Source: a virus. Taken from it: a stretch of 47,617 nucleotides of DNA. The stretch is taken from IMG/VR virus record IMGVR_UViG_3300048839_000532, positions 1 through 47,617 of that record, one strand, 5' to 3'. Position 1 is the stretch's first letter; every line of letters begins with the position of its first letter. Positions 3,208 to 47,617 of this stretch are shown piece by piece. The translations under genes were made by a program, and so were the position numbers. The notes under the pieces are model-generated. The model searched no databases. It was given only the letters and a program-made list of their open reading frames with translations, and had not been told where the DNA came from.

Positions 3208-3873
3208 ATGCCACCACCCAAAAACCCTATTTGCAAGAAGTGCGGCAACCTCCGGATGCCGATGGGCAATTGCCCGGCATGTGAGCGCATTCGCCAAAAA
3301 ACCAGAATCGAGCGCGCGGTCGCAAGGCAGCGCTCGCCTATCGCGTGGATGGAGGCAGAAAAGAAAGCCCGAGTACTCGCCAGGGAGCAAAAGCAAAAAC
3401 TCAAGCGCGCACTAAAACAGCCAAGCAAGGGCGATGCAGTCCAAGAGCAAAAATACAGGCGCGGTCAAATACTACTTGCGTTAGTTATAGACTGGATAGC
3501 AATGTTTATTGATTGCTATGAAAAGGACGAGACCGGCAGATGGTGGCGCAAGCCGGGCACAGACTTTCAATTGCAGGTGATGCTCACGGCGATGGAAATT
3601 GTTTTGCCGGAGTCAAAGCAGATATTCAAGAAGCGAAGGCAGACAAGAAAAGAGCGCGAAGCAAGTTCATTGCGTCACGCTTTCTTCACTGCGATGCTCG
3701 GCACTGCGCGCGGCTGGCACAAAACCGAATGGCAAATCAATGCCTTGCTTGAATCCGGTTCAATATCTCCCGAAGCTGCGAGATTGTTGCTTGCTGATTG
3801 CCATCAGCAAGTGCTGAAACGATTTGACTTTTATCCCTCAGTAGCGCTGCCAGGTCCTCATCAAAAGACATAG
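3208..3873 (+). CDS. Zinc-ribbon protein with basic helical middle
   Basis: A 221-residue protein. Residues 9-26 hold CKKCG and CPAC, a small zinc ribbon; residues 30-80 are very basic (KQKLKRALKQPSKG), as in nucleic-acid binding proteins; the rest looks alpha-helical and includes a hydrophobic segment (ILLALVIDWIAMFIDCY). The start ATG 3208 has only a weak ribosome site. It is the last rightward gene and its final 137 bases overlap, antisense, the 3' end of the SNF2-type helicase gene. Both reading frames look genuine, so the overlap may be real; function is unknown. Confidence 0.6.
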   Translation: MPPPKNPICKKCGNLRMPMGNCPACERIRQKTRIERAVARQRSPIAWMEAEKKARVLAREQKQKLKRALKQPSKGDAVQEQKYRRGQILLALVIDWIAMFIDCYEKDETGRWWRKPGTDFQLQVMLTAMEIVLPESKQIFKKRRQTRKEREASSLRHAFFTAMLGTARGWHKTEWQINALLESGSISPEAARLLLADCHQQVLKRFDFYPSVALPGPHQKT

Positions 3874-5944
3874 GCGCAATAGTATCGTATACGGTGACAT
3901 TGTCATTCTGTCCGATACGGTGGCATCTATCTTCGGCTTGTTGTTTTTTACCAGGAGTCCAAGGTTGCTCTACAAACAAAACTGTCGACGCCGCCGTCAA
4001 GGTGATACCTTCAGCCGCTGCCTCAAGCGAGCATACTATAACGCGGCATCCGGGGTCCGATTGAAACCGCGCTACATGCTCGGCGCGCACCGTGGCAGAG
4101 TCCGAGCCCATCACACTTGTAGCGCCCCATTGAGCCAAAGCGCCAAGCAGCTCTTGTTGGACTTCTATGTGATGCGCAAAGATTACGAGCTTTTGGTCGC
4201 CCTCCATAAAATCATTGACGAATGAGACGACCTCTTTGATTTTGCCTTGCGCGCAGAGCTTGCGCAAAACACCGATACCGACTAGCACCTTTGCCCGGGC
4301 GGCTTTTGCTGCGGCGATTTCTGCCGCCAATTGCGCGCGTGCTTCAATTTCTTCCGGAGTGCCGGCGTCCTCATCAACATCAATTGATTTGGTTTTCTCG
4401 GCGAGATAGGCAATCTCCCTGATGTACTTAACGAGGTCTTTTTCGGCTTTTGTATACTCGGCGCGATTTGCCAATTCCAACGACAGGGTTTCGTAGGTTT
4501 TTGGCGGCAGCTCGGTCAACACCTGGTCTTTTGTTCGACGGATGTAGCAAGTAGCGCGCAGTTTTGCGTTTAACTCTTCGAGATTCGATGCACCCGAGAA
4601 GTCCCAAGCCATCTTGCGCCCCGCGTTTTTCTGATGCGCATTTGTATAGCGCTGCAAAAATTTCCACTTGCCGCCGAATTCACTTAAGCGGTCCAGAATT
4701 TCCAATTGCGATGGCAGTTCGACGGGGCGATTAAGAATTGGGGTTCCAGTCAGCAAAGCGCGGTGCGGCACATTGCGGCTGATTTGATATGACGCCCTGG
4801 TCCTTTGCGCTTTGTCGTTTTTGAGATAATGCGACTCATCGCACACATAAACCTCAACACCCTCGGATGCTGCCTCGGCGAGCGGTGTGAGATTTACGTT
4901 TTTCTTCTTGTCATCAGCCCACCCGGCAGAATTCAGGTCGTAATTCACAACCAGAATGTTAGCCTTTGCCACTAAATCCGCCGGCGTTTTTGAATCGCAA
5001 ACAAGAACTAGCGTGATTGGGCACATGACACGAGCATGGGCGTATGGATATTCGGTGGCGACGTGATTGCCTTGCTGGTCGTAATGCTCGTACGAGTTTT
5101 TGCGAGGCGAGAAAAACATCTTTTGTGCACCCGGCAGGCAAGCCGCAGCCTCTTTACCCCAGTTCACCTTGACGGTAGCAGGGCAGTTGATTAGGGCTCG
5201 CTTGGCTCCCAAAAGGAAGATACCGCCCAGCGCTTGAATTGTTTTTCCAAGCCCCATGTCATCAGCAATCAGAACCCGGTCGTTTTTGAGCCAGTAATCA
5301 ACCCCGCCGTGCTGGAATGGTCTGGGCTCCTTGCCGAATCCGGTAAAGTCGAGCCGGACGCCGTCCTCAGCTCGTGAAAGTGTTGCGTTAGCGTGGGCTT
5401 TTGCAATAATTCCAGCGATTTGCTCGTAAGCGCCGGGTGCGAAATTGATGACCTTAGATAACTCAGCAGCTCCCTCGGCAGTCCCGATATTAAGGGGCGC
5501 GTGCCACATCTTTCGACCGTTATCGTCCTTAAAGCGTGCGCCAGGAATGAGCTTCTTGACTCGGTCCACGTCTGTTTGATTCCAGGGAAATTCGACAATA
5601 ATATTTCCCGATTCAATTGAAATCTGACGCGGTGAGGCAGGTTGAATGTTTGGTTTTGCAACCACCGGGCTTGTAGCGAGTTTGGCTCGAATGGCGTCCA
5701 TGTCGATTGGAGGCGGTGCGGGTGGTAGTACAGGCTTTTCGATTGCGTCATAGTTAATCCCGAATCTTGAAAGCTGCGATTTGTATTTGCGCAGCAGGTT
5801 GTAAACAGCCATCTCTTGGCGAGGGCTCCAATTCTCCGGCAGGCTTCGGATAAAACCGCCATCAAAGCGATTGAATCCGGAACCATCCTGGGCGCGCGCG
5901 CCATCGCAAACACCCAGTAAAGCGTTAACGGCTTGCTTTAGCAT
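3737..5944 (-). CDS. SNF2-family DNA helicase/translocase with HARP-like domain
   Basis: A 735-residue superfamily 2 ATPase. Residues about 115-165 resemble the HARP/annealing module of SMARCAL1-type enzymes (VDRVKKLIPGARFKDDNGRK). The ATPase core has motif I DMGLGKT at 229-235, motif II DESH at 369-372, LTGTPILNRP as motif III region, and a C-terminal helicase lobe with AAAEGITLTAA and RCHRIGQ. HARP-bearing enzymes reanneal or remodel forked DNA, so a role in phage replication-fork or recombination-intermediate processing is likely. Start ATG 5944 follows GGGAGAAATC and overlaps the gene upstream by 20 bases. It is the last gene of the leftward transcription unit and converges with the gene at 3208. 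Confidence 0.92.
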   Translation of the reverse strand: MLKQAVNALLGVCDGARAQDGSGFNRFDGGFIRSLPENWSPRQEMAVYNLLRKYKSQLSRFGINYDAIEKPVLPPAPPPIDMDAIRAKLATSPVVAKPNIQPASPRQISIESGNIIVEFPWNQTDVDRVKKLIPGARFKDDNGRKMWHAPLNIGTAEGAAELSKVINFAPGAYEQIAGIIAKAHANATLSRAEDGVRLDFTGFGKEPRPFQHGGVDYWLKNDRVLIADDMGLGKTIQALGGIFLLGAKRALINCPATVKVNWGKEAAACLPGAQKMFFSPRKNSYEHYDQQGNHVATEYPYAHARVMCPITLVLVCDSKTPADLVAKANILVVNYDLNSAGWADDKKKNVNLTPLAEAASEGVEVYVCDESHYLKNDKAQRTRASYQISRNVPHRALLTGTPILNRPVELPSQLEILDRLSEFGGKWKFLQRYTNAHQKNAGRKMAWDFSGASNLEELNAKLRATCYIRRTKDQVLTELPPKTYETLSLELANRAEYTKAEKDLVKYIREIAYLAEKTKSIDVDEDAGTPEEIEARAQLAAEIAAAKAARAKVLVGIGVLRKLCAQGKIKEVVSFVNDFMEGDQKLVIFAHHIEVQQELLGALAQWGATSVMGSDSATVRAEHVARFQSDPGCRVIVCSLEAAAEGITLTAASTVLFVEQPWTPGKKQQAEDRCHRIGQNDNVTVYDTIAPMSFDEDLAALLRDKSQIVSALADGNQQATISQLREILNRIQARH

Positions 5945-6191: not shown

Positions 6192-6476
6192 TTAGTCCCA
6201 GGGGTTACTTTGAGGGTCCGGCACTTTTACGGGCTCTCGCGGCTTGCGGGGCGCCCGTACCGGCTTCGGCTTGCGAGTCTTTGGGGCTCGTTTTTCAGTC
6301 GGTCCCATCCTGACAGCGTGCAAAAACTCGTCAAGGGTCACGACGCCATCAGCCAGATTGAATGCTGCGTTGAGCACATACTCAGCGGTATAAGCCATCG
6401 AGCCGCCCCGTGGTGTGATTTGCTCAACCCGTTTGTGGATTTGCTCTTGAGGGTAGATGTCAAGTTTAAGTCTCAT
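6192..6476 (-). CDS. Small protein with basic Pro/Lys-rich tail
   Basis: The 94-residue product starts at ATG 6476, directly behind GGAGGCGCAAG, the same Shine-Dalgarno cassette seen on the plus strand at 2.2-2.9 kb. The N-terminal 60 residues look folded and helical (HKRVEQITPRGGSMAYTAEY), and the tail is a disordered basic segment with repeated KPR/PRKPREP motifs typical of nucleic-acid or protein docking tails. It overlaps the end of the gene before it. Function unknown. Confidence 0.65.
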   Translation of the reverse strand: MRLKLDIYPQEQIHKRVEQITPRGGSMAYTAEYVLNAAFNLADGVVTLDEFLHAVRMGPTEKRAPKTRKPKPVRAPRKPREPVKVPDPQSNPWD

Positions 6477-7113
6477 CTTGCGCCTCCACCCTGACTGGTT
6501 TGTAACCCTGCTCGGCGCAGATTCGCGCCAAAAGGTTGAAAGCCTCGTCCGGTGTTGCGGCGCTTTCAACCGCGCAATTCTGTAACTCTAATTGAGCCAA
6601 GACGGCGGACTCTTTACGTGCGGCTTGCTCTGGCGATGGTTTCCAGGACTCCTGTTCGGCAAGCCATTTGTCAAAGCCATCATCTGCGGCGTCCTCTTCC
6701 CGCTCTTGTTTCCAGCGCTTGTACTCTTGGGTTTCCCTGTATTGAGCCAAGCGGAATTTTGAGCCTAGATTGTCATTGGTAGCTGATTGTGCCACGAATT
6801 CTAACTGCCCTGGATAGCGCATCACAAAGCACATTGCCCAGTCTAACGCTTGGTCGTAGGTTTTGATTGCTTGCGCGACGTTCCATGCTTCGGCGAGCTT
6901 GAATGATTCCCAGCGGCGGGTCAGATTGCCCACTTTGCGATGCTGCCACATCTGGGTGTTTTCTTCTTGTAATCCGTAGCCAATATTCACAAGTTTTTCA
7001 AGACAGCCAGCAGTTGCGCAATGCTGCCACCCCTCTTGTTTTCTTAATTCCAGCTCGGCAGCAGCAAGCGCGAACACAAAGCGGCGTCCGTTGATTTGTC
7101 GTTTGTTTTTCAT
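6466..7113 (-). CDS. Duplicated-module protein, long form (MKNKRQINGRR family)
   Basis: A 215-residue soluble, helical, charged protein. Its first 45 residues (MKNKRQINGRRFVFALAAAE) are nearly identical to those of the gene at 7667-7885, showing that the two are copies of one gene; from about residue 50 they diverge, because the other copy continues into a zinc ribbon. The middle is rich in Trp/Arg/Glu, and the C-terminus ends VEAQDET, where the next gene's ribosome site is embedded. ATG 7113 overlaps the stop of the repeat protein before it. Function unknown. Confidence 0.65.
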   Translation of the reverse strand: MKNKRQINGRRFVFALAAAELELRKQEGWQHCATAGCLEKLVNIGYGLQEENTQMWQHRKVGNLTRRWESFKLAEAWNVAQAIKTYDQALDWAMCFVMRYPGQLEFVAQSATNDNLGSKFRLAQYRETQEYKRWKQEREEDAADDGFDKWLAEQESWKPSPEQAARKESAVLAQLELQNCAVESAATPDEAFNLLARICAEQGYKPVRVEAQDET

Positions 7114-7670
7114 TGTTTGACCTCACTATACAGGCGGATTAATCGCTTCAATTCATGACGGCGCATTCGTTCCCGAGCATAAACAGCAGCATCAGCAGCA
7201 TAAACAGCAGCATCAGCAGCATAAGCAGCATCAGCAGCAGCATCAGCAGCAGCATCAGCAGCAGCATCAGCAGCAGCAGCAGCATAAGCAGCATAAGCAG
7301 CAGCAGCAGCAGCAGCAGCAGCATAAGCAGCACGGCGAGCTTGTTGCAATTCCAACGAATCGGCTTTACCTAGCGCAAATCGGCGAGCCACTTTGATTGC
7401 GTTTAAGCTACTCTCATCCCACTTGCTTGGATGGATTTGATTTAGCGCTTGCTCGGCACACCAACAGGCAAATAGGCGCTTAGTTTTGTCATCCGGTAGC
7501 GCGCGAATTCCGACCCAAATGCGGTCAACCAGCTCGATTGATTCGTCTTTTAAGACTTCCCGCCAGGAATCATAGCCGCGGGTGATTTGCGCGTCATATT
7601 GTGTAATCGCGCGGTCACAAGGGTTTAACGCCAGGATTTGCGCGCGGTCTATTTTGATTTTTGTTTTCAT
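7110..7670 (-). CDS. Ala-Ala-Tyr/Asp repeat protein, Imm-5-like (short copy)
   Basis: 186 residues. The N-terminal about 105 residues hold a conserved helical part (ILALNPCDRAITQYD, DRIWVGIRALPDDKTKRLFACWCAEQ), followed by about 55 residues built from Ala-Ala-Tyr and Ala-Ala-Asp triplets, then a basic C-terminal helix (RERMRRHELKRLIRLY). This layout matches a family common in phages and actinobacteria, annotated by analogy as putative immunity proteins (Imm-5-like); the biochemical role is not established. The gene is a paralogue of the one at 7875-8639 with a shorter repeat. ATG 7670 overlaps the preceding stop, with AGAGG upstream. Confidence 0.75.
   Translation of the reverse strand: MKTKIKIDRAQILALNPCDRAITQYDAQITRGYDSWREVLKDESIELVDRIWVGIRALPDDKTKRLFACWCAEQALNQIHPSKWDESSLNAIKVARRFALGKADSLELQQARRAAYAAAAAAAAAYAAYAAAAADAAADAAADAAADAAYAADAAVYAADAAVYARERMRRHELKRLIRLYSEVKQ
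7179..7336 (-). repeat. Trinucleotide low-complexity array encoding Ala-Ala-Tyr/Asp
   Basis: The plus strand reads as irregular alternations of GCAGCATAA and GCAGCATCA units. On the coding strand these become GCT GCT TAT/GAT. Unit length is a multiple of three, so slippage changes repeat number without a frameshift. Confidence 0.9.
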
Positions 7671-7885
7671 TGGTTCCTCTCAGAATCAGATAGACAGGGG
7701 TTATCAGGGGTGAATGATTCATCTACCCAGCCACATTCAGGGCATTCATAGCCAATATCTACGAGCTTTTCTAAGCATCCGCTCGTGGCGCGATGCTGCC
7801 ATCCTTCTCGTTTTCTTAATTCCAGTTCGGCGGCGGCAAGCGCAAAAACGAAGCGCCGCCCGTTGATTTGTCGTTTATTTTTCAT
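7667..7885 (-). CDS. Hybrid of MKNKRQ-family N-terminus and zinc ribbon
   Basis: 72 residues from ATG 7885 (an in-frame TTG at 7894 is less likely). Residues 1-42 copy the start of the gene at 6466-7113; the remainder (YECPECGWVDESFTPDNPC, ending SERNQ) matches the end of the small zinc-ribbon protein at 8636-8770. It therefore looks like a fusion produced during tandem duplication of the module. The CPECGW pair and a further Cys could bind zinc. It is coupled by overlap to repeat-protein genes on both sides. Confidence 0.7.
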   Translation of the reverse strand: MKNKRQINGRRFVFALAAAELELRKREGWQHRATSGCLEKLVDIGYECPECGWVDESFTPDNPCLSDSERNQ

Positions 7886-8639
7886 CTCTGGCAATCCTTT
7901 TGTGGGTGGTGATTAGCTTCTTCAGTGTGTGACGGTGCATTTTGTGGCGGGCAGCAGCATCATAAGCAGCATAAGCAGCAGCAGCAGCAGCAGCATAAGC
8001 AGCATCATAAGCAGCATCATAAGCAGCATCAGCAGCAGCATAAGCAGCAGCATCAGCAGCAGCATAAGCAGCATCATAAGCAGCATCAGCATAAGCATAA
8101 GCAGCAGCATCAGCAGCAGCATCAGCAGCATCATAAGCAGCATAAGCAGCAGCATCATAAGCAGCAGCATCAGCATAAGCAGCAGCAGCATAAGCAGCAG
8201 CAGCAGCAGCATCATCATAAGCAGCAGCATAAGCAGCATAAGCAGCATAAGCAGCAGCATCAGCAGCAGCATAAGCAGCATAAGCAGCAGCAGCAGCGGC
8301 ACGGCGAGCTGTTTGCAGCTCCAATGTATTTACTTTGCCATTTGCGAAATCACGAGCCACCTTGATTGCATTTAAACTGCGTTCATCCCATTTGCTTGGG
8401 TGAATCTGATTTAGCGCTTGCTCAGCGCACCAACAGGCGAACAAGCGTTTTTGCCGGTCATCGGGTAGCGCGCGAATACCAACCCAAATACGGTCAAGAG
8501 GCTCGATTGATTCGTCTTTCAGGCAATCAATCCAGGAATTATAGCCTTGGCTGATTTGTGCGTCATACTGTGTCACCGCACGACCGCATGGCGTCAGAGC
8601 TAGGATTTGTTCGCGCTCAATTCTAGTTTTACTTTTCAT
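7875..8639 (-). CDS. Ala-Ala-Tyr/Asp repeat protein, Imm-5-like (long copy)
   Basis: 254 residues. The first 110 are highly similar to the short paralogue at 7110-7670 (QILALTPCGRAVTQYDAQIS, DRIWVGIRALPDD), followed by about 115 residues of Ala with Tyr or Asp at every third to fourth position, roughly twice the length of the other copy, and a basic His-rich C-terminus. Such repeats could form a long helical or solenoid surface. ATG 8639 lies in the repeated junction GAGAGGAACCAATGAAA also used at 7670. Function unknown; the Imm-5-like assignment rests on family resemblance recalled from other phages. Confidence 0.75.
   Translation of the reverse strand: MKSKTRIEREQILALTPCGRAVTQYDAQISQGYNSWIDCLKDESIEPLDRIWVGIRALPDDRQKRLFACWCAEQALNQIHPSKWDERSLNAIKVARDFANGKVNTLELQTARRAAAAAAYAAYAAADAAAYAAYAAYAAAYDDAAAAAAYAAAAYADAAAYDAAAYAAYDAADAAADAAAYAYADAAYDAAYAAADAAAYAAADAAYDAAYDAAYAAAAAAAYAAYDAAARHKMHRHTLKKLITTHKRIARDEK
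7950..8300 (-). repeat. Long trinucleotide array encoding Ala-Ala-Tyr/Asp
   Basis: About 350 bases made almost entirely of GCA, TAA and TCA triplets on the plus strand (GCAGCATAAGCAGCATCA pattern). The coding strand is GCT, TAT and GAT. The array is over twice the length of the related one at 7179-7336, so array length clearly varies. Confidence 0.9.
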
Positions 8640-8770
8640 TGGTTCCTCTCATAATCGGTAAGGCAGGGATTATCACTTTCGACCTCTTCCCAGCCGCACA
8701 CAGGGCATTCATAACCCTGCGTGTAGCGGTTGTATTCTGTTTTGTCGGATTCGCAATCGGGGCAGTTCAT
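8636..8770 (-). CDS. 44-residue zinc-ribbon protein
   Basis: Reading from ATG 8770 the product begins MNCPDCESDKTEYNRY and continues with YECPVCGW and a C-terminal DNPCLTDYERNQ: two CxxC pairs of a zinc ribbon. It overlaps both neighbours with ATGA junctions (8767-8770 and 8636-8639). The last 25 residues are homologous to the C-terminus of the hybrid gene at 7667-7885, making this the parent or sibling of that fusion. Role unknown. Confidence 0.75.
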   Translation of the reverse strand: MNCPDCESDKTEYNRYTQGYECPVCGWEEVESDNPCLTDYERNQ

Positions 8771-9210
8771 GACGCAATCACCAATTCGTCAAGCTTGGAT
8801 GCGTCAACAAGCCATAGCCAGCGGCTGGCAAGTATTTTGGAGTTGTTTGCGGTAACAAGCATTGAGCCATCGTCACGAATAATGATTTCAAGGTTGACAG
8901 TGTCATAGTCAGGCAAGAGGTTGTTTTGCCCAATCCAGTCGATAAGCTGTTTTGATGGTTGCAGCTCAAAATAACGACCGTAAGTATTTTGTTCTGGGCG
9001 ATGGTCACGAACACCGACAAAGGATGACAGCCAGCAAGGCGCGGGCTTCTCTGTCGTGCGCCCGGTGCGCTTACTGAATGTGTGCTCAACGGTTTGATAG
9101 GTGTGCGCAATCATACGCGGACCGCCCGGCTTGGGCAGCTCGCATGGTTTAAGCTTGAACCAATCAGCCGGGTCGTGCTCTTGCAAGTAAAGTGGTTTTG
9201 GTGTGTACAT
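8767..9210 (-). CDS. Hypothetical protein opening the duplicated-module operon
   Basis: 147 residues from ATG 9210 (MYTPKPLYLQEHDPADWFKL), chosen because GGGAGAATTTGAC stands immediately upstream, the same leader as at the clamp gene; the frame is open to 9264 but lacks such a site. Contains a beta-rich C-terminal half (DTVNLEIIIRDDGSMLVTAN). No family recognised. It is the first gene of the operon 9210 to 6192, all coupled by short overlaps. Confidence 0.7.
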   Translation of the reverse strand: MYTPKPLYLQEHDPADWFKLKPCELPKPGGPRMIAHTYQTVEHTFSKRTGRTTEKPAPCWLSSFVGVRDHRPEQNTYGRYFELQPSKQLIDWIGQNNLLPDYDTVNLEIIIRDDGSMLVTANNSKILASRWLWLVDASKLDELVIAS

Positions 9211-9243
9211 TGTCAAATTCTCCCAAATTAGTACCCTGTATGG

Positions 9244-9263
9244 TGCCACTACGGATAGTGGCA
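9244..9263. promoter_or_regulatory. Perfect 8-4-8 palindrome between clamp and next gene
   Basis: TGCCACTA-CGGA-TAGTGGCA lies between the stop of the clamp gene and the start at 9210. No U-tract follows on either strand, so it is more likely an operator or an mRNA-stabilising hairpin than a classic terminator. GTACCCTGTATGGTGCC just to its left is a second partial dyad. Confidence 0.5.
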
Positions 9264-9275
9264 TGAGAAAGGTAG

Positions 9276-10166
9276 CTATTTTGTTTGGACGGGCATCAAA
9301 AGGTGGCGAACACTGGATGCCTCATAGCGAAAAACAACGGGCTTAAGCGGGGTGCTGTAAAGCATGGTGACATCACGGTCATGGTTCAGTGCTTGCGCCA
9401 GGAACTCGGCGCAAAAAGTGACCTTGAAACGGTCCAAGAGCCCATCCTTATCATTCACGAGAATGGAGCGCTTGTATTCAAAGAAGTCATGCACCACAGT
9501 GATATTGCAATCGACTTCAAGCGCGCGTTTTTCGTTCTGGGAAAAATTTAGAGTGATGATGCCGTGCTTTGCGGAATCTTTCTTTGTTTCGGCAATGTAG
9601 CAAGCTTGCTCGATTTGCTTGGCAGCTTCTATCAATGATTCAACAGGCGAGTGAGAGCCAAAGCGCATAGCAGATTTGATGTTCAAAAGATTGATACTTT
9701 GCAGCTTGCTTTCGTCAGGGAACAACTCCATGTAGCGCGGATATTGACCTTCGATAAGATTTCCTGACACCAGTTGATTGTAGTCGTGGTCGTGGATAAC
9801 AAAAGCAGAACCACGAACAACAAGATAAAAACCCATCTTCTTGGCGGACGCCGCGCGACTAGCAGTGATGAATTCTTTGGCGGGGACATTTTTGTTGAAA
9901 GACGAATAAATCCCTGATGCGCGAAACTCACCATGTGCCAAGCGGCTGCTGTCGGTTGCGCACACATGCAACTGCCCATCACGAACGTCAAAATTAATGG
10001 CGCTCAAAACAGGCGTTAAATCGTATTTTGAGGTACTGGCGCAAATCGCTATCTTGTTGACAATGCTCTTGATTTCTACTGGCTCAAAGAACAGTGATGA
10101 TGTATCGGCAGCGCCCGCTTCAAATCCCGGCGCAACACGGTTGTCATTCTTAGTAGTGGTGGTCAT
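9276..10166 (-). CDS. Beta sliding-clamp (DnaN) homologue, apparently two-domain
   Basis: 296 residues from ATG 10166 behind GGGAGAATTTGAT. Residues about 28-150 match bacterial clamp domain 2: VLSAINFDVRDGQLHVCATD with RLA following (compare LNGVLFE...VATDGHRLA), then GNLIEGQYPRYMELFP (compare SRLIEGKFPDYxxxxP). The rest fits domain 3, ending PLKPVVFRYEASSVRHLLMP with the typical YLIMP-type C-terminus. Bacterial clamps are about 366 residues with three domains; here nothing resembles domain 1, and about 25 linker residues precede domain 2. It would tether a polymerase or repair enzymes to DNA. No phage polymerase is seen, so host polymerase III is the likely partner. Confidence 0.85.
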   Translation of the reverse strand: MTTTTKNDNRVAPGFEAGAADTSSLFFEPVEIKSIVNKIAICASTSKYDLTPVLSAINFDVRDGQLHVCATDSSRLAHGEFRASGIYSSFNKNVPAKEFITASRAASAKKMGFYLVVRGSAFVIHDHDYNQLVSGNLIEGQYPRYMELFPDESKLQSINLLNIKSAMRFGSHSPVESLIEAAKQIEQACYIAETKKDSAKHGIITLNFSQNEKRALEVDCNITVVHDFFEYKRSILVNDKDGLLDRFKVTFCAEFLAQALNHDRDVTMLYSTPLKPVVFRYEASSVRHLLMPVQTK

Positions 10167-10197
10167 TATCAAATTCTCCCGTATAAAAGCAAACTAT

Positions 10198-10214
10198 GCT
10201 ACCTGAAAGATAGC
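10198..10214 (-). promoter_or_regulatory. Operator-like element upstream of the clamp gene
   Basis: GCTACC-TGAAA-GATAGC, a 6-5-6 dyad embedded in a larger perfect inverted repeat TATGCTA...TAGCATA. On the leftward strand it overlaps a possible extended -10 (TGCTATCTT) about 40 bases before the clamp start. Same pattern as the other dispersed sites. Confidence 0.65.
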
Positions 10215-10245
10215 ATAGCATACTACAGTACTATGAGAGGTTAAA

Positions 10246-15970: not shown

Positions 15971-16481
15971 GCCTGACGAACGCGTCAAGACCGAACTGCT
16001 TCAGTGGCTCAAAGAATTCAAGCCGAACGCAAACTTTCGAGAGCTGCGAGACTCCATCAACAGACTCCGGCACGCATTTATGTTTGGGCTTATTGAGAAA
16101 GAGATGTATACCGCCCTGGTCTACGGTATTCAGGTTGAGACGGTGATTTTGCGCGAGTCGCTCATCGAGGGTGGTGGCACGCAGCTCACGGACGCCGCCA
16201 AGAGCAAGGCGACATTCGCGCGCATGTCCGACCAGGAGCTGAAGGATTACTTGGCGCAGTCGAATAGCGTCAAGCGCATCGAGATGATTAACGACCTGGA
16301 CCGCCGAGGGCAGATTGTTGACGCCGAAGTGGTCGAGGTGCCTAAAATCAAAATCAAGGTTTCGACTCCAAAAAATGTTTCCAAGCGCATCCAAGAAGTT
16401 GCGCCCAAAACCGGGCTACTGGCTCAGCCACTACCCGCGCCACCACCACCAAAAGAGGAAAATGACGAATGTCCGATATAA
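15939..16481 (+). CDS. Hypothetical helical late protein (possible terminase small subunit)
   Basis: 180 residues from GTG 15939, preceded by AAAGGGGGCG. Helical N-terminal part (ELLQWLKEFKPNANFRELRD), a central charged region, and a Pro-rich C-terminus (LLAQPLPAPPPPKEEND). No DNA-binding motif is certain. Small terminases are helical and of this size, and no other candidate is clear, but the evidence is positional only. Overlaps the acetyltransferase-like gene by 13 bases. Confidence 0.5.
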   Translation: MGEKHELKAIEPDERVKTELLQWLKEFKPNANFRELRDSINRLRHAFMFGLIEKEMYTALVYGIQVETVILRESLIEGGGTQLTDAAKSKATFARMSDQELKDYLAQSNSVKRIEMINDLDRRGQIVDAEVVEVPKIKIKVSTPKNVSKRIQEVAPKTGLLAQPLPAPPPPKEENDECPI

Positions 16482-17287
16482 AAATGGAGCGTGTCTCGCC
16501 GCACTGGGCGACGGATGCGCAGGCAGAGTACGAGAAAGGTGTCGACCGGATGCAAGCCCTCGATGGTGCATGGGTCGCACTACAAAAAGAACCGTATGTG
16601 GTGCCCGATTCGGCGCAAGGAATGCCCGCAAAGGTGTTCTGGGGCTCTGTTTTGAATAACGGAGAAATCCACCTTGCAACCGATTCACAGGGCATTCTCG
16701 CCATACATATCCTATCGGGCATCCGCTGGGGGCTCTGGGCGAGCTGGGAGGCTGCCGTCCCGCCAAAACGCAGACAAAACCCTGCCGTCTTGGAATCGGC
16801 GCACAGAGTCATCGAGTACTGCTTTGCTCCTAGCGGGCTCGGCTTGCTCAAACTAAAGGCTGTAGTACACCCAGAAAACACCGGCGCCATTCATTATTTG
16901 CTCAAGCTGGGCTTCAAGAAACGCGCCATCCTCCCCAACGAGGCTTCGTTTAAGGACCAGCCCTCGACTATGATTCTTTGGGAATTGGACAATCCATTTT
17001 TGAAGGTGGACGACGTCCAGCCCGAGCCTGATACCGAAGAGGAAGAAGATGTTTGGAACACAGCAGCCGGGGATGAACTGGCAGAGCCAGATGCAAATGT
17101 CCCAAGCGGGGATTCCAACTCCCCCTACGAGTACGAACCAGTACCAGACCCCTGGTCCGTATTACAGCGGGTTACAGACAGCCAGCTCAGCATGGCAGGC
17201 GCCGCAAACAGCGTCGGAGCAAATGCAGGGGGCGGTCCAAGCAGGGTACCAACTCCCCGAAGAGTTAAGAATTACTGGGAATCCTAA
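16469..17287 (+). CDS. GNAT acetyltransferase-fold virion protein
   Basis: 272 residues. Residues 20-175 look like a GNAT fold: ILSGIRWGLWASWEA, then ESAHRVIEYCFAPSGLGLLK as the acetyl-CoA-binding region and VHPENTGAIHYLLKLGFKKR as the classic C-terminal GNAT motif (NxxxxxxYxKxGF). T7 gp13 and related podovirus internal-virion factors have this fold at this place in the late operon, so an assembly role is plausible; catalysis is not implied. The tail from residue 185 is acidic and disordered. The last 239 bases overlap the next gene in another frame. Confidence 0.7.
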   Translation: MSDIKMERVSPHWATDAQAEYEKGVDRMQALDGAWVALQKEPYVVPDSAQGMPAKVFWGSVLNNGEIHLATDSQGILAIHILSGIRWGLWASWEAAVPPKRRQNPAVLESAHRVIEYCFAPSGLGLLKLKAVVHPENTGAIHYLLKLGFKKRAILPNEASFKDQPSTMILWELDNPFLKVDDVQPEPDTEEEEDVWNTAAGDELAEPDANVPSGDSNSPYEYEPVPDPWSVLQRVTDSQLSMAGAANSVGANAGGGPSRVPTPRRVKNYWES

Positions 17288-41988: not shown

Positions 41989-43065
41989 ATGAGCGGCTAC
42001 AACCTGCAAATCACCACGAAAGACGACCTCCTGGCGGTCGCAAAACTTATATTTGATTCTGGGCTCTGCCCTGACTGCAAAAACGTCGACCAGGTCGCAT
42101 ACAAGGTAATGTTCGGCGGCGAGCTTGGCGTGCCGCCAATCGCCAGCGCCCAAGGCGTTTTTATCCAATGGAACAATAAGAAAGTCTACGACCACAAGAC
42201 AAAACAGGAGTCCTGGGTCGAGGTGCCAAAGGCTTCTATGACCTCAGCGCTGATGGCGTGCCTTATCAAAAAATCGGGGCGCTACAATTTTATCGTCAAA
42301 GAAACCACCGACACAAAATCGGAAATTGAAGTCTTTGAGCACAACAACTCGCTCGGCGTGAGAACCTTCACCATTGAAGACGCAAAAAAAGCAGAGCTAA
42401 CAACCGGACAAAACGCGCACAATTATAAAAAATATCCGCGCAACATGCTGCACGCGCGCAACATTAGCAATATCGCCAAGATGGACTGCACCGATGTTTT
42501 TGGCGGTCAGCCGGTCTATACGCCTGAAGAGTTAAACATGGTTGTCGATGGCGAAACTGGCGAGCCAATTCTTGAGCAAGGAGAACAGCCCGCCGAGGGA
42601 AAGCAGAAAGGCGCGGCTACATCTACCGCTGCGCAGACTGCGGGCAAATCAGAAGAAACCGGCAAGGCGAATGCCTCGAATGCTCAGAATTCGAGCGAGA
42701 AATCGTCAACCAGTCAGAGCGGCACGACTACTGGAAAACAAGCTGACCCAAAGCCTGCAAAGTCTGCCGAGAATACGAAGGACTCAGCAGTCTCGACGGC
42801 GAATGCCCCCAGTGCTTCTGGCGCGCAGCCCGTTAACGACCTTGAATTCGCATCGCTCAAGCAGGGTATCTGGAAAGCATTCAACGCCTCTTGTTTTGCC
42901 ATTCTCGGCGAGGAAAACAAGCAGAAAAACGTCGCCGAATTCAAGTCGATGCTACTCAAAAAATTCGAAGTCAATTCCGATGATGCCGCACAAATGCGCG
43001 TGTCGCTAACACCAGAAACAGCAACCAAGATTTGCGAATTCTTTGGCGCAAATCCGGCTCAATAG
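41989..43065 (+). CDS. RecT-like single-strand annealing protein
   Basis: 358 residues. The N-terminal 190 residues show the RecT-family course: DDLLAVAKLIFDSGLCPDCK, GGELGVPPIASAQGVFIQWN with lysines, a beta-rich core, KKYPRNMLHARNISNIAKMD, and FGGQPVYTPEEL near 185, a frequent end of the annealing domain. Residues 200-290 form a low-complexity Ser/Ala/Thr/Gln linker, and 290-358 a small helical C-terminal domain that may bind SSB or a partner. The protein would anneal complementary single strands in recombination. First gene of its operon; the start codon is preceded by TTATGGAGTTTCGGA. Confidence 0.7.
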   Translation: MSGYNLQITTKDDLLAVAKLIFDSGLCPDCKNVDQVAYKVMFGGELGVPPIASAQGVFIQWNNKKVYDHKTKQESWVEVPKASMTSALMACLIKKSGRYNFIVKETTDTKSEIEVFEHNNSLGVRTFTIEDAKKAELTTGQNAHNYKKYPRNMLHARNISNIAKMDCTDVFGGQPVYTPEELNMVVDGETGEPILEQGEQPAEGKQKGAATSTAAQTAGKSEETGKANASNAQNSSEKSSTSQSGTTTGKQADPKPAKSAENTKDSAVSTANAPSASGAQPVNDLEFASLKQGIWKAFNASCFAILGEENKQKNVAEFKSMLLKKFEVNSDDAAQMRVSLTPETATKICEFFGANPAQ

Positions 43066-43075
43066 GGAGAAAACA

Positions 43076-44362
43076 ATGCTAGATGCTGAAACAAAAGAAA
43101 ACCTCGAAGCGCTCCTCGTCGAGCTTGAGGAGAGGCTCAAAGTTACGGACCCCGACTGGGAGGATGTCGAACACGCGAACATCTCAAAGCAGATTGAAGC
43201 GACGCGCGCACTATTGGAGGACCAGGGTGCAGATTCCGACCGGGAGTCGGTCGACGACGCCGAGGTGCTGCCTCCTGCGCTTATGGACCCCAAAACGGGC
43301 GAGCGCTACACTGAAAACCCGTTCGGCTACGCAGAGCCGGATTCTACACGCCCGGACGGGGCTGATGGTCCTTCGCTTTCCCCGGCGGAAATCGTAAAAA
43401 AGGACTCATCCGCCTCCCGAGCAAAACGAGGCGGAAAGAAATCTTCCGAAGCCGCGCCGACGAATTCCGAGACAACGGATATTTTGGTCGTTATAAATGA
43501 AAACGCAGCCGATATGCGCGCCGAGCTGGATACGCCGGAGAAGATTTTCTTGTTCTATCGTGACAAGTGCTGGATAAACCCAGTTCAAGGCTCCGACGGC
43601 AAGCCTATCTACGTGCCACCATCCCCGGTGCGCGATGCTGAGGCGGTTCGCAATTACGGTTTAGAGAAAGGCATTCGCCCGGTTCAAGTCGACATCTTCT
43701 TTGACGAGGCGTGGGCGGAGATTGTCGGCGGTCGATTCTCTCTCGGCTCGCAGCACAACTGGGAAGTGCTCTATCGCTGGTACGAAAAGCTCAAGGCTTA
43801 CACCGTGCCAGAGATAAACGAGTGGGAAGAAATCGAGCAGATTCTGTTCGAGAATTACAGCATCACCGAGCCGTCGCTCAATCCAAAAGACCTCGACCCG
43901 GAGCAGGAAAAGGCAGACTGGGACAGGGTTATGCTCGCCAAGCGCCAAGCCGAGGACGAGATAAAAGTGCTTACCGCCCAATTTCAGCGAATGCTTTCAG
44001 TGCCAGAGCGTGAGCTGAAGTACCTCGAAACGATGTTCATTCAGTCGCCCGCTGCCGAGGATTTCATTGCTCGCCACGCGAAGAAAGGAACGAAATACGT
44101 CGACCTCCCGCACGGTCGCTTGCAGCAACGCAAGGTCTCAGAATCGCTTGAATGTTTTGACGAGACCAAATTTATGGGCTATGTCGGCAAGAAGGGCGAG
44201 GCATGGGCAGCCTCAATGAACATGGAGCGCCGAGTCGAGTGGAGAGCCATCGACCAGCGAGGCAAAATCAAAGGCTTTATCAAGGAGATGGACAACCCAG
44301 AAGAGGCAGGCTATCGCCGCCGTCCGGAATACCAATCCACTAGCACCAGCTATGGTGACTAA
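43076..44362 (+). CDS. Gam-like nuclease-protection protein with N-terminal extension
   Basis: 428 residues from ATG 43076 (behind GGGAGAAAACA); a longer frame from 43043 overlaps the recT-like gene and has no ribosome site. N-terminal 150 residues are acidic, helical and low-complexity. Residues 290-420 resemble Gam: a helix (ITAQFQRM-like), then FIARHAKKGTKYVDLPHGRL-type basic turn, and a repeated pattern ending MERRVEWRAIDQRGKIKGF. Gam dimers bind DNA ends and block host exonucleases, and are commonly beside recT. The extension is unusual. Confidence 0.6.
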   Translation: MLDAETKENLEALLVELEERLKVTDPDWEDVEHANISKQIEATRALLEDQGADSDRESVDDAEVLPPALMDPKTGERYTENPFGYAEPDSTRPDGADGPSLSPAEIVKKDSSASRAKRGGKKSSEAAPTNSETTDILVVINENAADMRAELDTPEKIFLFYRDKCWINPVQGSDGKPIYVPPSPVRDAEAVRNYGLEKGIRPVQVDIFFDEAWAEIVGGRFSLGSQHNWEVLYRWYEKLKAYTVPEINEWEEIEQILFENYSITEPSLNPKDLDPEQEKADWDRVMLAKRQAEDEIKVLTAQFQRMLSVPERELKYLETMFIQSPAAEDFIARHAKKGTKYVDLPHGRLQQRKVSESLECFDETKFMGYVGKKGEAWAASMNMERRVEWRAIDQRGKIKGFIKEMDNPEEAGYRRRPEYQSTSTSYGD

Positions 44363-44781
44363 TGTATGAAGTCTCAAGGGGAGAGTCGTTTTTCAGCGAG
44401 CGACCTCCCTTGCATATGTACTTTCCGCTTCATGTCCACGGCAAAGAGCGCCCCGGAACCGGACACCGCACCCCCGTGGCGACTCGCGTCCTTGAGGATA
44501 TTCTTGGCGGTAAGCTCTCAAGAGAGCAAAATTATTGGGATGACAGCCCCTTGTCAGGACCGGTCGCATTCATGGCGCGGTGCATGTTTGACCGCAGACC
44601 GGGTGGCGACTGGGACAATTTAGGAAAGATACTTGCTGACTCGCTGAACGGCATTACCTACCATGATGACCGACAGATAATTTATGGCTCGGTGGAAATT
44701 CGTCAATCCGACGAGCCTGGGGTTTCATTGACGCTAGTCGAGCTGAAAGATGACTTCAAAATTGGGAGAGTACCTCGATAA
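44362..44781 (+). CDS. rusA: RusA-family Holliday-junction resolvase
   Basis: 139 residues. The core reads FPLHVHGKERPGTGHR, then RPGGDWDNLGKILADSLNGI, and ITYHDDRQIIYGSVEIRQSD: the DxDN..KxxxDxLNGxxxxDDxQ signature of RusA, whose aspartates bind the metal. It resolves four-way junctions made during recombination-dependent replication. A second in-frame ATG at 44416 may be the true start, since RusA proteins usually begin close to the PGxPxxKxRP segment. The start at 44362 overlaps the stop before it. Confidence 0.88.
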   Translation: MYEVSRGESFFSERPPLHMYFPLHVHGKERPGTGHRTPVATRVLEDILGGKLSREQNYWDDSPLSGPVAFMARCMFDRRPGGDWDNLGKILADSLNGITYHDDRQIIYGSVEIRQSDEPGVSLTLVELKDDFKIGRVPR

Positions 44782-45886
44782 TGTCATTTACCCGAGGTTG
44801 GACCGTGCAATTGTTTTTCATAGCCTGAATCCTGTTCGCAAGGGAGAAATTATCAATGCAGACTGTCCGAAGTGTGGAAAGCGTGGAAAAGCCTGGATTA
44901 AGCAAAGTGGTCACAGCCTTGTTTGCTGGTCCTGTGATTATTCTGTTCGTATTTTGGCTTACGTGGCTGGAGAAGGCTCGCCTCGCGGCAAAGAGTTTCT
45001 TGACGCCCTCAATAAGCTGGCAGACATGGCAGGCGTACCGAGCCCTGAGCAAGCGCTGCCATCAAGCACCTTTAAAGCCATCCGAGCGGAGGCTGCAAAA
45101 GCGACTGCTTATGAGCGTATTCTTGAGGTGTGCAAATCGGCACTAGATTCACCATGGGAGGCTGAGGCAGCACGTGAGTATCTGGAAAGAAGAAAGTTCG
45201 ACATCGCAGCACACCCCCTTGGTTTTTTGGAAAACTCTGAGAGTTTCCAAGAAGAATTCGGAGACGACCTCCTGTTGGATTGCGGGTTTGCGAAGAAAGA
45301 CGATAAAACAGGGCGGATCTATTTCACCTGGCGGAATCGCATTATTGGTCCGTTTTTCGATAGACACGGTCGAATCATCGGTTTTTGGGGACGTAGTCTC
45401 GACGACCAAAAGAATCCGCCTAAATATAGGTGGACGGCTGGCGCGTCTGTGGCTACCTCTGGCGCTTACGGATTGGCGGATGCTCGGCTCGATTATCTTA
45501 TTCTCGTCGAGGGTGTTCTTGATGTGTTTAAAGCCCGCCAGCACGGCATTTTTAATCTGGCTGCGTTCGGCGGTACTTCGGCACAAAACAGGTGGGACGG
45601 TCTATCAAAGTGGCACGTGGGCAAAGCGGTCCTGCTATTTGATAACGACGAACCGGGTCACAAAGCTACGCTGGCAGCTATTGAGAGCGCGTTTAAACTC
45701 GCCAAGGGACTGACACTGTATGCGGTGCCACCGTCTGTGATGGGCGAGTGCAAGGACCCGGATGAATATATGGACAAATGGGGAGGCGAAGCGCTAAGGC
45801 TGTTGGTTGAGAAGCACGCAATTCCTGCGGCGATTTATTACGCAAAGGCGGTTTTTGATGGAAGCAAGCGTCAGAGAAACACTTGA
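44750..45886 (+). CDS. DnaG-type DNA primase
   Basis: 378 residues. N-terminal zinc ribbon: Cys39, Cys42, Cys59, Cys62 (DCPKCGKRGKAW...VCWSCDYS). TOPRIM domain from about residue 245: ILVEGVLDVF with Glu254, and VLLFDNDEPG at 295-303 for metal binding. It makes RNA primers for lagging-strand synthesis, partnering the helicase encoded directly downstream. ATG 44750 overlaps the RusA gene by 32 bases; the 3' end overlaps the helicase by 29 bases. Slightly shorter than many phage primases and without a fused helicase part. Confidence 0.9.
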   Translation: MTSKLGEYLDNVIYPRLDRAIVFHSLNPVRKGEIINADCPKCGKRGKAWIKQSGHSLVCWSCDYSVRILAYVAGEGSPRGKEFLDALNKLADMAGVPSPEQALPSSTFKAIRAEAAKATAYERILEVCKSALDSPWEAEAAREYLERRKFDIAAHPLGFLENSESFQEEFGDDLLLDCGFAKKDDKTGRIYFTWRNRIIGPFFDRHGRIIGFWGRSLDDQKNPPKYRWTAGASVATSGAYGLADARLDYLILVEGVLDVFKARQHGIFNLAAFGGTSAQNRWDGLSKWHVGKAVLLFDNDEPGHKATLAAIESAFKLAKGLTLYAVPPSVMGECKDPDEYMDKWGGEALRLLVEKHAIPAAIYYAKAVFDGSKRQRNT

Positions 45887-47264
45887 AAAATTATTCGCGA
45901 TGAGCAATGGCATCTCGGACCCTGTGGCGAAACTACAATTTGATGCGGAGGCGTTCGGCTTTGTCAGTCAAGAAACGGGCTTCGGGCTCGAAGCAATCCA
46001 AGAAATCCTCAAGAAAGAGCAAGCCGAGATACGCAGAGCCGCCGACGCAGCAAAGCTTGAGCATCACCTGCAAGAATTGCGGGAATCGCTCCGAGATACC
46101 GGCGATACGGCTGATGTTTTTGCACGGATGTTCAAAATGTCACAATCTCACCTTTACGCTCAGGGTGACCGTCGACAAGCACTCCTTTCGCGGCTGGGTG
46201 GGCAGCTCGAACGGTACGAAGACTACATCTGGGAGCGAACCGGGCAGAAGTTCGCAGGAGTCCAGCAGTCCGTCTTTCCAACCTTAAACCAAGCGCTGAA
46301 TGGCTTTCAGGGTGTGACGATGGTCGCCGGTCCTACGAACTCCTCCAAGACCCAATTCTTCCTACACAATGTCGTAAGCGTGCTCAAGGACAACCCCGAA
46401 ACTGCCGTCCTTTATTTCGCCCTGGACATGCCGGAGGCTAAGCTACTGAGCCGCCTGGCTGCGTGCGTAACCGGCGTGAATGTCGAGCAATTCGAGCAAG
46501 GGAGTAATTTGACCGGAGAGGGGGCACCTTTGACCGACGAGGACCTGCAAAGCCGGCATATCGGTCTCGAATGGCTGCGGGAACATCTCGGAAAGCGTTT
46601 ATTTTTGTTTGACCGTTCATACTTCCCAAACCTCCGGGTTTGTTTCGATGATGTAAAAGACGCCGTCGCCCTGGTGAAGAAAGAATCAGGTCTTAAACGG
46701 GTTTCAATTTGGGTTGACTACATGGACCAGCTTGTCGTTCCGGAACAGGACAAAATGAAAGACATAGCGGTCGACCAAGAGCGAGTGCAGGCATTACTCG
46801 ATTGGCATCTACTCAACCCAAACGACCCGATTCTCTCCATTACCGAGGTCAACAAGGAATCCACCAAGGAGGGCAACCCGGTCACGAATGCAGGCGTAAT
46901 GGGCACCTCTCGCAAGGTATATGCCCCCGACAATGTGTTAATAATCAATCCCTTGTCCAACGAGGAACTAATGAGTTGGACCGAGAATTTTATCGGCGGC
47001 GGTCCAGATAATATGCGATTGAAAATAAACCACAATCACCCGGTCGAGTATAGCGATAAAGAGGTAAAGGAAAAGGCGTTTCGGGTAGAAGCCGAGCATC
47101 GACGCCGCTGGCTGGCGGATATAAATCAATCACTCGGGACTATCACTGTAACGAAAGTGCGGGACGGCGGCAGGCGCTGTAAAGTCTTTTACACAAACTT
47201 TTTCCGCTGCTCTCGATTTGAAGAGGGTTTAAGGATTGTGGAGCCGGGTCGCGATTGCCAATAG
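45858..47264 (+). CDS. DnaB-type replicative helicase
   Basis: 468 residues from ATG 45858 (upstream in-frame ATG 45807 lies deep in the primase gene). Residues 1-130 are helical, as in DnaB N-terminal domains. The RecA-like core has Walker A AGPTNSSKT (157-165), VLYFALDMPEAKLLSRLAA (the DnaB H1a region) and VSIWVDYMDQL as Walker B, then SITEVNKESTK and an arginine-finger region. Hexameric 5'-3' helicase with the adjacent primase. Its stop is part of the next promoter. Confidence 0.9.
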   Translation: MEASVRETLEKLFAMSNGISDPVAKLQFDAEAFGFVSQETGFGLEAIQEILKKEQAEIRRAADAAKLEHHLQELRESLRDTGDTADVFARMFKMSQSHLYAQGDRRQALLSRLGGQLERYEDYIWERTGQKFAGVQQSVFPTLNQALNGFQGVTMVAGPTNSSKTQFFLHNVVSVLKDNPETAVLYFALDMPEAKLLSRLAACVTGVNVEQFEQGSNLTGEGAPLTDEDLQSRHIGLEWLREHLGKRLFLFDRSYFPNLRVCFDDVKDAVALVKKESGLKRVSIWVDYMDQLVVPEQDKMKDIAVDQERVQALLDWHLLNPNDPILSITEVNKESTKEGNPVTNAGVMGTSRKVYAPDNVLIINPLSNEELMSWTENFIGGGPDNMRLKINHNHPVEYSDKEVKEKAFRVEAEHRRRWLADINQSLGTITVTKVRDGGRRCKVFYTNFFRCSRFEEGLRIVEPGRDCQ

Positions 47265-47318: not shown

Positions 47319-47501
47319 ATGCCAAAAGTAAAGGCAAAAACCAGAACAAAGAAAGAGGACGCGAACAAGAGAGCACAAATCGACATGCCGGATGACATGC
47401 GTGACTCGCTTGACGAAATCAAAGAACATCTAGGCATCCGACGCCGAGCGGAGCTGGTTAGGTTTATCCTCGGCGAGTACATAAGGGGCCGGGAAAAATG
47501 A
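47319..47501 (+). CDS. Ribbon-helix-helix DNA-binding protein
   Basis: 60 residues from ATG 47319, behind GAGAGGGACC. A basic N-terminal arm (MPKVKAKTRTKKEDANKR) is followed by RAQIDMPDDMRDSLDEIKEH, the strand and first helix of an RHH domain, and LGIRRRAELVRFILGEYI, the second helix. RHH repressors bind short repeated operators as dimers, so this is a candidate for the protein that recognises the dispersed 17-bp dyads. Its own gene stands behind such a site. Stop overlaps the next ATG. Confidence 0.8.
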   Translation: MPKVKAKTRTKKEDANKRAQIDMPDDMRDSLDEIKEHLGIRRRAELVRFILGEYIRGREK

Positions 47502-47617
47502 AAGCGCCAGGGAAACTTTCAATAACCGACATCATGATTGCGGTCGTGGGTCGCGGCGTGCGCGTCAACGAATTCGGCATTACCGACGAGCTGGCTTTTG
47601 CTGGCGGAAGCCCGGTC
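47421..47617. repeat. Right copy of the terminal direct repeat
   Basis: Same 197 bases as at 1-197 with C at 47490 in place of T at 70. This copy carries a GGCC (47487-47490), a site otherwise nearly absent from the genome, whereas the left copy does not. Confidence 0.9.
47498..47617 (+). CDS. Second copy of the gene at 78-467, cut by window end
   Basis: The first 40 codons (MKAPGKLSITDIMIAVVGRG...) are identical to those starting at 78 and are truncated only because the window ends. They should be read as the same gene in the circular molecule. Confidence 0.85.
   Translation, partial: MKAPGKLSITDIMIAVVGRGVRVNEFGITDELAFAGGSPV

Follow-up and report, generated by a model that had tools for sequence, protein, structure and literature searches.

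Sliding clamps form six-domain rings. Subunits of bacterial β have about 366–380 aa and three domains, and those of PCNA and T4 gp45 have two clamp domains each. Domains 2 and 3 of β are the portion that aligns with PCNA; the source of this comparison does not decide between an ancestral clamp of two domains and one of three (PMC8357120). In E. coli β, the pocket that binds partner proteins lies wholly within domains 2 and 3 (PMC11139829).

Homologues of β are common in phages and mostly have three domains: 118 of the 130 records matched by the clamp of Psychrobacillus phage Perkons cover at least 80% of that protein. The family phrog_947, which includes Arthrobacter phage DrYang gp100, Perkons ORF14 and EvePickles gp76, comprises clamps of 360–372 aa with domain 1, often from genomes that have no annotated replicative polymerase. 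A second family, phrog_6615, consists of clamps of 211–235 aa without domain 1, in which domain 2 lacks about 40 residues from its middle, leaving about one and a half domains. A simple ring of six domains is doubtful for proteins shortened in this way. Its members include Bacillus phage Silence gp47, BCJA1c gp19, Geobacillus virus E3 gp175, Microcystis phage MaeS and Staphylococcus SPbeta-like proteins, with gp53 of B. cereus phage Sam46 as a probable addition. This family carries the misnomer "DNA polymerase", and its short β-like clamps have stood in the databases unremarked. The phrog_6615 short clamps were found at the following loci:

L099, 6938–7630
L104, 5977–6633
L106, 2459–3094
L107, 1456–2163
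L108, 2920–3600

Phages with a clamp and no annotated replicative polymerase recur, with Silence, BCJA1c and Pthi1 as cases among the genomes inspected; in Pthi1 only Pol IV is annotated, and the annotated "DNA polymerase" of BCJA1c is the clamp itself. A phage that has a clamp yet lacks its own polymerase is nothing out of the ordinary. Several candidate phage clamps in records filed as phages (Staphylococcus phage SA 1306 Kay, MT835476; L007, L008) turned out to be bacterial dnaA–dnaN segments, a contamination of the phage collection, and were not counted. In the literature searched, we found no dedicated study of two-domain or phage-encoded β clamps; the 2011 survey by Kazlauskas and Venclovas may mention short clamps.

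The window, that is, the whole stretch of 47,617 nt of viral DNA analyzed here, encodes a β-type clamp in a leftward accessory block, outside the rightward primase–helicase operon. The features at this locus are:

9276–10166, minus strand: clamp gene, two-domain β-type sliding clamp of 296 aa (Pfam, TIGR00663, domain HMMs, AlphaFold2 model, VIA-align)
9709–10106, minus strand: β domain 2 region, approximate (HMM positions 5–121 of 121 on residues 31–151)
9279–9695, minus strand: β domain 3 region, approximate (domain 3 HMM 23.9 bits; C-terminus LLMPVQTK)
10164–10180, minus strand: Shine–Dalgarno-like leader GGGAGAATTTGATAATG of the clamp gene, also before the next gene at 9208–9224
10193–10219, minus strand: putative terminator-like or attenuator-like hairpin of 12 bp, downstream of the zinc-ribbon gene and upstream of the clamp gene
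8767–9210, minus strand: gene directly downstream of the clamp gene, 147 aa, without a family match

The clamp ORF runs from an ATG at 10166 to a stop at 9276, with an in-frame TTG two codons upstream of the ATG, which is preceded by a Shine–Dalgarno-like GGGAG. A 17-nt leader, GGGAGAATTTGA(C/T)AATG, stands before the clamp gene and again before the next one (9210), with one mismatch between the copies, and has three matches in the window against 0.19 expected. Because the ATG at 10166 carries this leader, repeated before the next gene, we take the product to be 296 aa long. Hairpins also lie on the minus strand ahead of both genes (10193–10219 and about 9230–9260), each followed by the leader, and these hairpin–leader pairs are possibly a shared regulatory element. 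The upstream neighbor is a 127-aa zinc-ribbon-like ORF (10629–10246), a different gene about 80 nt away, which rules out that the clamp gene is one part of a split three-domain gene.

The preliminary description had proposed that the protein aligns with domains 2 and 3 of β and has no domain 1, and this was borne out by profiles, domain HMMs, alignment and structural model alike. PF02767, the β central domain, matched the ORF with 36.4 bits, above the cut-off of 27. The DnaN model TIGR00663 matched at 3e-15 over profile positions 134–256 of 367, with a score of 56 bits that lies below its equivalog cut-off of 137.65 bits. The best PHROG was phrog_947 (1.4e-13, profile positions 134–250 of 368), with phrog_6615 far weaker (1.7e-4). 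The Pfam model of domain 3, PF02768, had no match to the clamp ORF, and domain 3 was called from an in-house profile, the full-length alignment and the model. No match to the PCNA or gp45 Pfam families was obtained with the clamp protein, the only families appearing at E ≤ 1 being PF02767 and PF00712.

The closed genome, translated in six frames into 1,005 segments, was searched with single-domain HMMs built in-house. The clamp ORF was the sole match genome-wide for domain 2 (E = 1.1e-18) and domain 3 (E = 8.4e-7), and the best match to domain 1 in the same segments, at E = 0.13, fell on domain 2 of the clamp ORF. As the domain 1 HMM gave only this weak cross-match, domain 1 is absent from the clamp gene and is not encoded elsewhere in the genome. 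In the alignment with three-domain phage clamps, the protein has nothing before domain 2 and reaches the conserved C-terminus LLMPVQTK; tblastn identity to DrYang gp100, Perkons ORF14 and EvePickles gp76 was 24–26% over domains 2–3. The resulting layout is a tail of residues 1–20, domain 2 at about 21–152 and domain 3, which has insertions relative to bacterial β, at about 158–296. The net charge is about 0, with a pI of 7.1, compared to a pI of 4.7–6 for most of the three-domain clamps in the comparison.

A structure was predicted with AlphaFold2 from an alignment of 14 relatives, two from phages and twelve from bacteria, the β proteins for the alignment having been gathered by a GTDB scan that returned 80 staphylococcal and related β clamps. 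The model (pLDDT 75.9, pTM 0.75) shows both clamp domains complete and about 20 tail residues in disorder, with domain 2 spanning elements E22–27 to E131–136 and domain 3 elements E159–163 to E286–290. A third domain, which would have spoken against the two-domain description, was looked for, and the model has two. A single-sequence control was uninformative (pLDDT 32.6); since AlphaFold2 fails without the alignment, the model is only as good as that alignment. VIA-align placed residues 13–296 onto S. aureus β residues 130–377 with a Z-score of 24.1 and 2.5 Å over 244 residues, showing that the two domains are placed relative to each other as in β. The best 50 PDB matches found by Foldseek were all bacterial β; PCNA chains were not among the best 50 listed, which ranks β nearest and is compatible with some similarity to PCNA. 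Viral PCNAs were present in the BFVD fold matches. The two-domain architecture is well supported.

The two ends of the window carry the same sequence:

1–197 = 47421–47617: end repeat, 197 nt, one mismatch

An independent 27,301-bp contig is collinear through the junction at 99.996% identity. From the end repeat and this junction-crossing contig, the genome is closed at 47,420 bp, with nothing outside the window. The repeat could be a direct terminal repeat of the T7 kind; alternatively, the genome could be circular or permuted and the repeat an overlap from its assembly.

The gene is known from one genome and one near-identical contig only, as might be expected if it were decaying or if an assembly error had removed domain 1. 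We consider this highly improbable: the same gene is present in an independent contig, it has a clean start with a Shine–Dalgarno leader in common with the next gene, the DNA upstream is another gene with no remnant of domain 1, and the conserved core positions have been kept.

Besides a terminase large subunit and a lysozyme, the genome encodes a set of replication and recombination proteins:

44750–45886, plus strand: DnaG-type primase (TIGR01391, 6e-35; PF08275 and Toprim)
45807–47264, plus strand: DnaB-like replicative helicase (PF03796, 5.9e-7; phrog_243 and phrog_19)
44362–44781, plus strand: RusA-type Holliday junction resolvase (PF05866, 2.4e-9)
41989–43065, plus strand: RecT-like single-strand annealing protein (phrog_4171, 2.4e-9)
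3737–5944, minus strand: SNF2-type helicase, in the same leftward block as the clamp (PF00176, 8.7e-22; phrog_62, 2.8e-92)

Only one large protein of the replication block has no match in Pfam, PHROGs or NCBIfam; it has 439 aa (43043–44362, plus strand), and by eye its C-terminal part may slightly resemble Gam-type nuclease inhibitors. Elsewhere, 16469–17287 (plus strand), just before the virion-protein genes, has a weak match to GNAT acetyltransferases (0.0047). Two paralogues at 7110–7670 and 7875–8639 (minus strand) contain long low-complexity A/Y/D repeats (AAYAAYAAADAA...) and have matches to Imm5 (4e-5) and phrog_18326. Together with the flanking fragments 6466–7113 and 7667–7894, they look like a tandem duplication, with 77–80% DNA identity.

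Family A, B and C polymerases were searched for in the closed genome with Pfam, PHROGs and direct family searches, and none was found; a DnaX-like clamp loader was likewise absent by profile. The closure of the genome rules out a polymerase outside the window, and the lack of one is therefore real as far as the profiles reach. The large ORFs yielded no hidden polymerase in these searches, to which a polymerase unlike the profiles could have been invisible. The statement in the preliminary description that the phage has no recognizable polymerase thus held, and a search by profiles for the overlooked polymerase that would have contradicted it came up empty.

The residues of the partner pocket (taken from PMC11139829) and of the subunit edge were mapped onto E. 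coli β through the alignment, at about 20% identity. In subsite I (E. coli numbering), L155, T172, R176, L177, P242 and M362 are kept, with V247 and V360 each replaced by L. In subsite II, M362 and P363 are kept, Y323 is replaced by F and V344 by L, and H175, N320 and R365 are lost. The hydrophobic half of the pocket, which binds the LF of partner motifs, is thus largely kept and the Gln-binding half altered. At the domain 3 edge, the β dimer residues I272/L273 correspond to Y190/I191, which are still hydrophobic, and part of the acidic patch maps to K232/R233. These edge changes would fit a head-to-tail contact made with a further domain 2 in place of β domain 1, and the K232/R233 substitution would make mixing with host β less likely.

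Among 22 phage proteins, including the replication set, the clamp-binding motif was not enriched (3 found, 3.0 expected). With the motif at chance level, the partners of the clamp must be host proteins, and with no phage loader either, both loader and polymerase would be the host's.

The preliminary description had offered two roles for the protein, capture of host Pol III or a block of host functions. In the second, the protein would be an unproductive clamp, a decoy that stops host replication by occupying host clamp-binding motifs or by capping the host β ring. Host clamps are known targets of phage proteins, one case being Gp168 bound to the S. aureus β clamp (PDB 7evp), and both the retained LF-binding pocket and the position of the gene in the accessory block instead of the replication operon would suit such a role. 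A decoy, however, would need the pocket alone, whereas the fold keeps both domains and both head-to-tail edges. Moreover, a phage with its own primase and helicase depends on the host polymerase and would be harmed by blocking Pol III. We consider the decoy unlikely. Retention of the pocket's hydrophobic half favors recruitment of host Pol III and the host loader over simple poisoning; of the two proposed roles, capture fits better and blocking less well.

The clamp might instead serve recombination or repair, together with RecT, RusA or the SNF2 helicase, or late transcription in the manner of T4 gp45, which is the precedent for a transcriptional clamp (PMC9690074). The clamp gene does share the leftward block with the SNF2 helicase gene, and β homologues adjoin a helicase gene in Pthi1 and EvePickles. 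On the other hand, we recognized no phage RNA polymerase or gp33/gp55-like factor, and clamp-binding motifs in the SNF2 helicase, RecT and RusA did not exceed chance. A non-replicative function seems improbable to us.

We hold in similarly low regard the idea that the protein does not trimerize, but forms a mixed or half ring with host β subunits or acts as a loader-free dimer or monomer. Some viral clamps do function without rings or loaders (PMC9690074), and the near-neutral pI, unlike that of acidic ring clamps, is found in short phage clamps too. The fold nevertheless retains both edges, and the acidic domain 3 edge that pairs with β domain 1 is partly K/R, which disfavors mixing with host β.

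Our best reading, to which we give about an even chance, is that the protein forms a homotrimer and serves as a clamp for host Pol III. The ancestor would have been a bacterial-type β clamp in which domain 1 was lost or never present. Three copies would close head to tail, with domain 3 of each contacting domain 2 of its neighbor, to give a ring of six domains as in PCNA and gp45; by the rule that clamps form such rings, closure with three subunits is probable. Behind the phage DnaB-like helicase, the phage primase would prime the phage DNA, and the host clamp loader, with δ engaging the LF pocket, would place the ring there. Host Pol III would then be held on phage templates by the domain 2/3 pocket, possibly along with ligase or Pol I, and the phage would run its own clamp with a borrowed polymerase. 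The dependence of the model on its alignment, the chance-level count of clamp-binding motifs, the near-neutral charge, the altered Gln-binding half of the pocket and the location of the gene outside the primase–helicase operon weigh against this reading. A more specific version is a tentative proposal: the loss of domain 1 was an event separate from PCNA and gp45, and the resulting homotrimer, joined through a new domain 3/domain 2 interface, is loaded by the host and drives host Pol III.

The phage has few relatives in the collections that were searched. A single-protein scan of IMG/VR with the clamp recovered nothing but this phage's second contig; an alignment-based scan contributed two Arthrobacter clamps and nothing more, and GTDB genomes contained no orthologues. 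The capsid and helicase had no match among 50,697 phage records and, in IMG/VR, matched only the same phage's contig, and the terminase gave one distant 4.6-kb contig. Judged by these core genes, the lineage looks like a singleton. In a phylogenetic tree, the phrog_6615 short clamps group together (88/93), and the present clamp, on a long branch, was not placed. A single clade of this clamp and the short clamps had a p-AU of 0.31, and with the long branch the tree neither groups nor rejects them.

The protein is a living example of a two-domain clamp of clearly bacterial type, which shows that the bacterial fold can do without domain 1, and it is useful for the question of two-domain versus three-domain ancestry. 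It also points to phrog_6615 as a whole misnamed phage family of even shorter clamps. If the protein is a trimer, no new fold is needed for a change in subunit number, and that change becomes reproducible and measurable, in terms of ring stability, loading by a bacterial loader and use by Pol III. The phage would then provide a modern natural example of the change between clamps of two and of three domains, with a bacterial-derived clamp in the archaeal/eukaryotic layout. The preliminary description had gone further and seen in it a route by which evolution led from the bacterial type to the trimeric one; that claim is weaker than stated, and this would be a parallel case, not the origin of PCNA.

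Compared to bacterial β (TIGR00663; S. aureus, 7evp; E. coli, 2pol), the phage protein has domains 2 and 3 that are homologous along their full length and, in the model, equally placed relative to each other, and it has largely kept the hydrophobic half of the peptide pocket. Unlike bacterial β, it lacks domain 1, is neutral in charge and has a changed Gln-binding subsite and domain 3 edge. It shares the two-domain subunit with PCNA and gp45, but is nearer to bacterial β in both sequence and fold. Cyanopodoviruses without a DNA polymerase also have replication genes, and use of host Pol III has been proposed for them; unlike the case here, a sliding clamp is not mentioned in the text of that report (PMC9860041). 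The closest annotated phage relatives are the phrog_947 clamps, which differ in having domain 1. The phrog_6615 clamps resemble the present protein in lacking domain 1 and in their near-neutral charge, but differ in their shortened domain 2, which is complete in the present protein. Polymerase-less phage β clamps and the short phrog_6615 clamps are thus already known, and what differs here is a complete domain 2 without domain 1.
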